Positions 57,255 through 59,600 of a DNA stretch of 59,600 nucleotides are shown here, piece by piece. Each line of letters starts with the position of its first letter. The stretch's first letter is position 1. A program made the translations under genes and the position numbers. Origin of the DNA: Actinobacteria bacterium HGW-Actinobacteria-7 (GTDB lineage: Bacteria; Actinomycetota; Coriobacteriia; Anaerosomatales; PHET01); assembly GCA_002841275.1 (NCBI GenBank), contig PHET01000014.1, positions 1-59,600 on the forward strand, given 5' to 3'. The notes below the pieces were generated by a model that was given only the letters and a program-made list of their open reading frames with translations, had not been told where the DNA came from and ran no database searches.

Positions 57255-57277
57255 GGCGCGACGAGATGGGGGAACAC

Positions 57278-57886
57278 ATGAATCACGACCTGGTGCTCGC
57301 CGAATACAACTCTCTGCGCGGTGAGATTCTCCAGATCAACCAGCAGATCAAACACCTATTTCAGATCACCATGACCGCGGTCTTGGCCATCCTGGCCTGG
57401 GGAATCTCGGCGAAGGATTGGATTATTCTGCTTACGCCCGCCCCGATAATGCTTGTGTCTGTGCTGATGATGCTTTCCGAGATGGAGTCCATGTTTCGCA
57501 TTGCGACGTACATCATGGTGTTCATCGAGTCAGAGCACCCGGAGCTGAACTGGGAGACCCGAATTCAGCACGCCGGTGGCGAGCGCGGACGGGCCGAAAA
57601 GTATAATAACGTCGCCATCATGGTCTCGTACCTGGCATCCGCCGTTGTGAGCCTCTACATGTCCTACTCCATCGCCACCAACAGCTCACCTGTCAAGGAT
57701 GACGCGAGTGGCTGGGTCGTGCTTGCCGTGGCGGCAGGGACAGTGGCGCTCGCCCTTCTTGCAGGCTGGCGCATAGCGCGCAACCGCGTGGGAGTCGAGG
57801 ATGTTCACGTGAAGGTCTGGGAGACGGTCAAACACCGCGAGAAGCATGCGCTTAGGGACGCAGCAGAACACGCTGGCGATTCCTAG
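57278..57886 (+). CDS. Membrane protein of unknown function beside the integron integrase
   Basis: 202 residues from the ATG at 57278 (GGGGGA six bases earlier); an ATG four codons upstream is possible. A charged N-terminus (NSLRGEILQINQQIKHLFQ) resembles a coiled coil. Two helices follow (about 30-65), then an extended soluble part, and two helices in the C-terminal half (about 110-165). The DNA is less GC-rich and uses more AT-ending codons than the flanking arcA, as is common in transferred genes. Proteins of this general pattern are often found in mobile gene cassettes, but no attC was found around it. Family not recognised. Confidence 0.65.
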   Translation: MNHDLVLAEYNSLRGEILQINQQIKHLFQITMTAVLAILAWGISAKDWIILLTPAPIMLVSVLMMLSEMESMFRIATYIMVFIESEHPELNWETRIQHAGGERGRAEKYNNVAIMVSYLASAVVSLYMSYSIATNSSPVKDDASGWVVLAVAAGTVALALLAGWRIARNRVGVEDVHVKVWETVKHREKHALRDAAEHAGDS

Positions 57887-57898: not shown

Positions 57899-57990
57899 CT
57901 GGCAAGATAGTGGCAAGCGACGGGTAAGTAGGCGGGCGCATGCTGACGGGTACGCGCCCCGTGCCAAGCACCTCGAAAGCGACCCCGCCG

Positions 57991-58974
57991 ATGAGCCCGT
58001 ACGACTGCCCGGCCGAGAAGCCCCGCCTGATGGAGCAGCTGCACCGCCTCGCTCGCGCACGTCACTACAGCCCCCGGACCGAGCAGGCGTACTGCCGCTG
58101 GGTGAAGCGGTACATCCGCTTTCACGGCATGCGCCATCCAGCAGAGATGGGTGCCGAGGAGGTCAACGCGTTTCTGGGCCATCTGGCGGTTGACCAGAAG
58201 GTGAGCGCCTCAACGCAAACCCAGGCGCTCAGCGCGCTGATCTTCCTGTACAGCGGGGCCTTTGGGATCGAGTTGGGCGACCTGGGGCAGGTGGTGCGGG
58301 CCCGGAAGTCCGACAGGCTGCCGGTGGTGATGACACGCGACGAGGTGCGGCAGGTGCTCGAGCAGCTCGACGGGGAGCACTGGCTGATGGCGTCGTTGAT
58401 GTACGGGTGCGGGCTGCGGCTGATGGAGTGTCTGAGCCTGCGCGTGAAGGATCTCGATTTCGACGGCAACGAGATCACCGTCCGCAACGGCAAGGGCGCC
58501 AAGGACCGTGTGACGATGCTGCCGAACTCGCTCAAGCCGGAGCTGAAGGAACAACTGAGCCGGGCCAAGGCGGTTCACGAGCGGGACCTCGCCGACGGGT
58601 GGGGCCGTGTGGTGTTGCCCGACGCGCTCGACCGCAAGTTCCCGGCGGCGGGTGCGTCGTGGGGCTGGCAGTGGGTCTTTCCACAGATGAACCGGTGGCA
58701 CGACTCGAAGACCGGAAACCAAGGGCGACATCACGTCCACGAGACGATCCTGCAACGGGCCGTGAAGGAAGCGGTTCGGCGCACGGGGTTGCCCAAGCCC
58801 ATCGGGTGCCACACGTTTCGCCACTCGTTTGCGACGCACCTGCTTGCGGCGGGTTACGACATCCGGACGATCCAGGAGTTGCTGGGTCACAAGGACGTGG
58901 GGACGACGATGATCTACACCCATGTTCTCAACAAAGGAGGGCATGGTGTGCGCAGTCCGATGGATGGACTGTGA
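57991..58974 (+). CDS. intI: Integron integrase (IntI-type tyrosine recombinase)
   Basis: Site-specific tyrosine recombinase that inserts and excises gene cassettes at attI and attC. 327 residues from the ATG at 57991; a longer start at 57940 adds 17 non-conserved residues. Catalytic residues are in place: R143 (GCGLRLME), K168 (GKGAKDR), H274-x2-R277 (HTFRHSF), H300 (GHKDV) and nucleophile Y309 (IYTHV). The IntI-specific insert before the HxxR box, the one XerC/D lack, is present ([25 protein letters not shown]). The C-terminus [14 protein letters not shown] also fits IntI. All motifs are intact, so it should be active. It is followed by a thioredoxin-like selenoprotein gene. Confidence 0.96.
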
Positions 58975-59042
58975 TGGCGGGGCCGCAGGCTGCTACCATC
59001 GGGGCGACGAGCACCTACCGACCATGCCGATCAGGAGCGCCC

Positions 59043-59357
59043 GTGACCAGCACGATAACCATCCTGCACACGAACGGCTGCGGCGGAGCGCCGCTCGCCA
59101 TCGAGGCCGGCACGGCCGTGGCCGCCCAGCACGACGATGTCGTGGTCGAGACGGTCCTGATCGAGGAGAGCGCCGATGCCATCGAGCGCGGATTCCGAGG
59201 CTCGCCGACCGTGCTGGTCAACGGTAGCGATGTGGAGCCAGACTCACAGACGCCCGTGGGATCGATGGGTTGACGACGCTACCGAGTGCCCGGTCAGGGC
59301 ATCAAGACCTATCCAAGTGCCGAGATGATCGCCGAGGCGCTCACCCGCAGCCGATAG
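59043..59357 (+). CDS. Thioredoxin-like protein with in-frame UGA, probable selenoprotein
   Basis: 104 residues if the UGA at 59271-59273 (residue 77) is read as selenocysteine, 76 if it stops. The N-terminal part matches small thioredoxin-fold proteins (GCGGAPLA with an early Cys, then GFRGSPTVLVNGSDVEPD). The frame stays open for 27 codons after the UGA and reads RRYRVPGQG...YPSAEMIAEALTRSR, the C-terminal end that the family needs. The UGA lies where relatives have a conserved Cys (CR-Y). A SECIS-type hairpin follows (59287-59301). CAGGAG is upstream of the GTG start. Function is likely redox, substrate unknown. Confidence 0.8.
59287..59301 (+). promoter_or_regulatory. Candidate bacterial SECIS element
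   Basis: The 5-bp stem TGCCC/GGGCA, extended by a G-T pair at its base, encloses the loop GGTCA. The first loop G lies 18 bases after the UGA. Bacterial SECIS hairpins place a short loop with a G at its start about 16 to 37 bases after the UGA, and the E. coli fdhF loop contains GGUC as here. This is direct support for selenocysteine insertion by SelB. Confidence 0.7.
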
Positions 59358-59405
59358 GCGCACGCCGCGCCGCCGCGCGCAGCCCCGCCTTCAGCCGGCT
59401 TATGC

Positions 59406-59520
59406 AGACTGTACATGCCAATAACGAGCCACCAACTCGTGTGGCGCGTCGCCACCGCGTGACGGATATCAAAGAAAGCGCCATGCTGCTCACTGGGGCT
59501 TTTGAAGACTGTATACATGC
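59406..59520. repeat. Pair of near-identical direct repeats 100 bp apart
   Basis: AGACTGTACATGC at 59406-59418 and AGACTGTATACATGC at 59506-59520 differ by a TA insertion. Their starts are exactly 100 bases apart. Such spaced repeats occur in integron attI sites, but this is only an association. Confidence 0.5.
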
Positions 59521-59521
59521 A

Positions 59522-59528
59522 GTTAGAC
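59522..59528 (+). other. GTTAGAC core-like recombination site
   Basis: GTTAGAC matches the integron core consensus GTTRRRY and directly follows the second repeat. No matching inverse core (GTCTAAC or another RYYYAAC) lies within 140 bases upstream. It could therefore be an attI-type simple site or a chance match; a 7-base degenerate motif has low weight alone. Confidence 0.3.
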
Positions 59529-59600
59529 GGAGTTGTCCCGGTGCGGGCTTGTCACTCCACCTGCTCTCGAGATTCCATGGATAGTCATCGGCTCGCTCAT

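Follow-up and report, generated by a model that had tools for sequence, protein, structure and literature searches.

The locus analyzed here raises the question of how genes needing special decoding may spread on an element which hands genes to any host. The window, as the whole 59,600-nt stretch of Actinobacteria bacterium HGW-Actinobacteria-7 DNA is called below, carries an integron integrase gene, intI, and, 68 nt past the end of intI at 58974, the frame of a small thioredoxin-like protein interrupted by one UGA (Table 1). Whether this UGA is read as selenocysteine (Sec), and whether the gene owes its place to the integron, are the two parts of the question.

Table 1. Features at the intI end of the window, with positions in the window.
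Feature	Position	Strand	Remarks
intI, integron integrase (344 aa)	57940..58974	+	TIGR02249, 478 bits vs. cut-off 265
AGGAG, probable ribosome-binding site	59033..59037	+	5 nt before the GTG start; read from the sequence
DF-like selenoprotein gene (predicted)	59043..59357	+	GTG start codon at 59043; 104 residues, Sec at codon 77; 76 aa if UGA stops
In-frame UGA, read as selenocysteine (predicted)	59271..59273	+	relatives have Cys at the same position
bSECIS hairpin GUGCCC[GGUCA]GGGCAU	59286..59302	+	loop begins 18 nt past the UGA
Deduced attI	59397..59528	+	direct repeat and same elements in order-mates; deduced from motifs
attI element GGCTTATGCAGACTGTA	59397-59413; second copy 59497-59513		core GTTAGAC at 59522-59528
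Probable start of first cassette	59529..59600	+	putative; contig C19 ends at 59600

The frame is arranged as in the original prediction, a single in-frame TGA at codon 77 being followed by 27 open codons and by a TAG at 59355-59357, and the product would indeed stop at 76 residues if no recoding took place. Translated through the UGA, the frame gives VTSTITILHTNGCGGAPL...GFRGSPTVLVNGSDVEPDSQTPVGSMG-U-RRYRVPGQGIKTYPSAEMIAEALTRSR. The GGUCA-loop hairpin described eighteen bases past the UGA is also found, and falls within the limits of the bSECIS model (loop of 3-9 nt, stem of 4-16 bp, G in the first two loop positions, spacing of 16-37 nt, MFE at or below -7.5; PMC13188914), having a loop of 5 nt, a stem of 6 bp, a spacing of 18 nt and a free energy of -9.6 kcal/mol. 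The window is rich in GC, and similar features are common in it. The frame stays open for at least 27 codons past the stop in 58% of TGA-terminated ORFs, and 11% of all TGAs in the window are followed by a bSECIS-like hairpin of -7.5 kcal/mol or lower; the strict form of the hairpin (GGU loop, stem of at least 6 bp, 16-21 nt away) follows 3 out of 1632 TGAs, that of the window gene included. The hairpin alone was rejected as proof once this background had been measured, and because of the abundance of both open frames and generic hairpins the case for a selenoprotein rests on the relatives.

No relatives were found by a protein-only search of genome contigs, and nothing was found in viral contigs. 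A DNA pattern in which TGA was fixed at the Sec codon gave 16 matches in genome contigs, 12 of which are chance matches, and four are true and whole relatives. The UGA resides at the same codon as in the window gene in L057 (UBA2272) and L052 (Thermoleophilia UBA2241), and two UGAs are present in the DF-like genes of L046 (Coriobacteriia Kmv32) and L049 (Actinomycetes SKS1.bin6). A profile search of 396 genomes of the phylum gave matches in 91 genomes. In this sample an internal TGA is found at the two Cys positions in 19 matches, TAA in one match, which has a broken frame, and TAG in none. TGA matches are 20 when G509 is included, but its L144 was not counted, as the TGA there is where the gene ordinarily ends; similarly, the U assigned to the N-terminal site of L155 proved to be a false match, and not a Sec position. 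L033 (G004), which features a GSMGU motif, is cut short on both sides, is not a full member, and was treated as a remnant. This remnant (1501-1710, motif GSMG-UGA-RRYRV) sits inside what appears to be another thioredoxin-like gene.

True TGAs are located only at residue 13 (as in TGU-P) or at residue 77 (as in GU-RxY), both being conserved Cys positions. Residue 77 is encoded by UGA in 15 relatives, window gene included, and is Cys in 48. No aligned relative has anything other than Cys or UGA at this place, in agreement with the Cys given for the family in the prediction, and no homologue ends at the UGA point. Among 63 rows (62 distinct), 39 are Cys/Cys, 10 Cys/Sec, 9 Sec/Cys and 5 Sec/Sec at the two positions. 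On a tree of these 63 rows, built on few columns and with many open forks, the position states need 4 changes, vs. a mean of 22.6 when shuffled. L057 and L052, the nearest relatives of the window protein, share a clade with it that has a support of 100/99. A whole group of DF-like genes, L145-L152, from genomes of one family (G487, G477, G526, G432, G507, G418, G727 and G555), has UGA at the N-terminal Cys (GU-P), mostly lacking, under the model used, a strong hairpin.

The nearest named family is DF, described by the NCBIfam profile NF049942 ('DF family (seleno)protein'). The window protein aligns to it over the whole length, residues 5-99 to profile positions 1-96, both Cys/Sec positions included, and scores 65.1 bits, below the cut-off of 70. 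The score decreases to 59.0 without Cys77, to 58.3 without Cys13, and to 44.8 when the sequence is cut at the UGA, in line with the earlier claim that the part past the UGA is the family C-terminus. The best of 15 aligned members scores little higher than the window protein by E-value, and no match at the cut-off was found in 398 genomes of the class. Since no match reaches the cut-off, the branch to which the window protein can be assigned by sequence is called DF-like, and is not taken as a formal member. Pfam matches of the window protein are to thioredoxins, all sub-threshold. TsoX, the HSGNPxU motif (seleno)protein (NF045809), is likewise a small thioredoxin-like (seleno)protein, but it matches weakly, and only the first two thirds of the window protein (17 bits vs. 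a cut-off of 52), leaving out the second Cys/Sec site. The protein had been described simply as thioredoxin-like, a description which holds for the fold; the family already had a name, of which the prediction was unaware.

DF was introduced as hypothetical protein DF by Xiao & Zhang 2025 in the deep-Sep paper, with one Sec member, from Desulfosediminicola flagellatus, and without further homologues containing TGA (PMC12013277), and is listed in a 2026 review (PMC13188914). In contrast, many UGA members are found here in Actinomycetota, with Sec predicted at either or both positions. Known in 2025 from one bacterium, DF becomes in this way a group found widely among actinobacteria, in which Cys and Sec can replace each other at two positions, and a single small protein is therefore enough to test what Sec offers over Cys.

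The genome to which the window belongs (2.53 Mb, 38 contigs, completeness 100) was checked for the sel genes, and all are present. The tRNA-Sec gene, with anticodon TCA, maps at C2:32383-32475 (69.3 bits, cut-off 47). Contig C34 carries selA (595.8 bits) and selD (372 bits), the latter with an in-frame UGA of its own (AGU-AAKWG). The selB gene runs off the end of C34 and continues on C2, the two parts sharing 25 identical overlapping residues; SelB scores 317 bits on the first of the two contigs. A tRNA-Sec over the cut-off was detected in five of six related genomes tested. No tRNA-Sec over the cut-off was found in the L049 genome (43.5 bits), and since the second hairpin of this two-UGA gene is also weak, L049 may be an exception, or may result from misassembly or misbinning. 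In genome G401, selB (L156 11-1699) is followed, about 765 nt downstream, by a DF-like gene whose UGA is at the N-terminal site (L156 2464-2763).

The UGA might be a true stop, the locus encoding a 76-residue thioredoxin-like protein followed by a fossil of the former C-terminus. The base composition of the window, with the frequencies of open frames and generic hairpins reported above, speaks for such a reading. Yet residues R78, Y80, P83, G84, G86 and P91 are conserved with the relatives across the 27 codons downstream of the UGA, and the UGA recurs at the same codon, with the hairpin, in several lineages. Further, the stem varies in a concerted manner at synonymous sites, the pair 59288/59300, made up by the third positions of a Val and a Gly codon, being G-C in the window, U-G in L057 and U-A in L052. 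A true stop is thus highly improbable. Just as improbable is that near-cognate tRNAs misread the UGA as Cys or Trp, or that a sequencing error hit a Cys codon. TGA is one base away from TGC and TGT, but such events would hardly confine UGA to residues 13 and 77, both conserved as Cys, across the 24 of 63 rows that have it, with neither TAA nor TAG in intact frames; independent assemblies agree on the UGA, and the full Sec machinery is encoded in the genome. Hairpins, moreover, are found after UGA and not after Cys. When the first 25 nt past the residue-77 site were searched for hairpins of -7 kcal/mol or lower with a G early in the loop, 13 of 15 UGA members and 3 of 48 Cys members scored positive, in a test for which distance and loop range were chosen and the p-value is overstated, because the relatives are not independent. 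SECIS evidence is weak at the N-terminal site, where 3 hairpins at or below -7 kcal/mol were counted, and Sec at this site is therefore assigned mainly by position.

Taken together with the relatives, these data indicate that the window gene almost certainly reads its internal UGA as selenocysteine, Sec insertion itself being predicted from the sequence. The observations named beforehand as contrary to a selenoprotein (a genome devoid of sel genes, homologues ending at the UGA point, homologues having neither Cys nor Sec there) were all looked for, and none was made. According to the mechanism proposed, SelB with Sec-tRNA(Sec) would be recruited by the GGUCA-loop hairpin, and the ribosome would read the UGA at 59271-59273 as selenocysteine. 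Standard gene callers cut or miss DF-like Sec genes.

The integrase features the Pfam Phage_integrase and SAM-like N-terminal domains, and intI genes over the cut-off were detected in 46 of 69 genomes of the order. Directly upstream of intI, the region 57266-57886 (+) encodes a 206-aa protein, apparently membrane-spanning, with no Pfam or NCBIfam match. In order-mates, an element of the type GGCTTA-CAGACTG is found downstream of intI, mostly 14-53 nt past the stop codon, followed further downstream by a motif such as GACTGTATAATCATT, and then by GTTAGAC. The corresponding element of the window is at 59397, 425 nt past the integrase match. By comparison with the order-mates, the region 59397-59528 is a putative attI, and about 390 nt, including the selenoprotein gene, appear to have been inserted between intI and attI, as sampled relatives lack them. 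No attC site was found in the window by a covariance model built on the attC sites of UBA2272 and Kmv32. The same model detects attC arrays elsewhere in this genome, on C10, C25 and C6. The window gene was initially regarded as an ordinary cassette, an idea rejected because no attC follows, and the order-mates place the gene before attI. The integron setting first described is consequently right as to the position directly downstream of intI, and subtler than it seemed, the gene being no attC cassette and lying between intI and the deduced attI. Such a location is not unique to the window, since L104 and L097, too, have ORFs after the intI stop and before the attI core which, read by eye, resemble a BrnT/BrnA-type toxin-antitoxin pair (L104) or the antitoxin of such a pair (L097).

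Relatives from the same order reside in integron cassettes. The UBA2272 contig has attC sites at L057 730-826, 1571-1672, 2515-2609 and 3042-3135, and the DF-like gene is located between the last two, on the strand opposite to the attC sites. The Kmv32 DF-like gene is located between attC sites at L046 2837-2939 and 859-955, and is followed in the same cassette by a gene encoding a glutathione-reductase/MerA-like oxidoreductase (L046 996-2324, minus strand). A UGA at 2181-2183 replaces the second Cys of the active-site motif of this enzyme (GGTCALRG-UGA-DPKK); it is a probable third Sec codon, and three would be predicted in this one cassette.

The gene could be a selenoprotein gene lying next to intI by coincidence, with no link to the integron. 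Both the absence of an attC after the gene in the window and the location of L034 (G095), the fourth DF-like gene of the order, which is not flanked by attC sites and sits between permease genes, would fit. However, three of the four DF-like genes found in 69 genomes of the order (those of the window, UBA2272 and Kmv32) are linked to integrons, and the window gene fills the insertion of about 390 nt which separates the intI stop from an element found 14-53 nt past intI in most relatives. Coincidence is accordingly judged unlikely. An integron-linked origin is preferred: given the position of the window gene between intI and attI and the cassettes of same-order relatives, this kind of gene would owe at least some of its spread among Sec-using bacteria to integron recombination, and the window gene may have reached its present place in this manner. 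More broadly, Coriobacteriia integrons probably collect and spread Sec-encoding genes, a cargo usable only by hosts endowed with the Sec machinery. The Kmv32 cassette, with its three predicted Sec codons, illustrates this best. The genome of the window resembles known integron platforms in having IntI, attC arrays and an attI-like site, and differs from them by a Sec-encoding gene between intI and attI, as its relatives do by Sec-encoding cassettes. The occurrence of Sec-encoding genes next to and inside Coriobacteriia integrons appears to be new. No report of Sec-encoding cassettes was found in the open-access literature on integrons with selenoproteins or selenocysteine; a Vibrio integron paper mentioning selenocysteine deals with a selenocysteine lyase cassette, not with a Sec-containing protein. 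Sec cassettes would be under-counted, since standard gene callers cut or miss such genes.

The model predicted for the window protein from a five-row alignment has a thioredoxin fold (pLDDT 92.2, pTM 0.86), matched by PDB thioredoxins at a TM of about 0.6, with Foldseek E-values of only about 3e-3. Fold, N-terminal Cys and cis-Pro loop are shared with classical and small archaeal thioredoxins (PDB 1fo5, 1nho). Unlike in classical thioredoxins, there is no CXXC (or CXXU/UXXC) motif, the N-terminal motif being C13-G-G-A, and the second redox residue is found 64 residues downstream, past the cis-Pro loop. Cys13 takes the place of the first Cys of the thioredoxin CXXC, and Sec77 lies past the cis-Pro loop (GSPT). 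As neither position is ever anything but Cys or Sec, and Sec occurs at each of them, Cys13 and Sec77 are likely to form a thiol/selenol pair, which may reduce an oxidised substrate or a metal(loid), or bind it and pass it on.

Neighbours of the relatives point to redox or metal(loid) handling. A heavy-metal MerR-type regulator and an NAD(P)/FAD oxidoreductase adjoin Cys homologues on four plasmids, and metal-sensitive regulators are found near Cys homologues on other plasmids. ArsP_1 permease and LMWP/ArsC-like proteins are encoded next to L155, an ArsP_1/SaoE-like permease next to L034, an ArsC-like protein next to L052, and ArsR next to L158, to which the glutathione-reductase-like enzyme of the Kmv32 cassette can be added. 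In L148, L146 and L161 housekeeping genes are found alongside. No metal(loid) neighbour was found around the window gene itself, and a metal(loid) role of DF-like proteins, being deduced for this reason from the relatives, is rated at about even chances. The Sec gene of the Thermoleophilia relative lies, within L052 272-5193, near genes for a tyrosine integrase, a phage replication protein O-like and an arsenate-reductase-like protein, which suggests a further mobile element as carrier.
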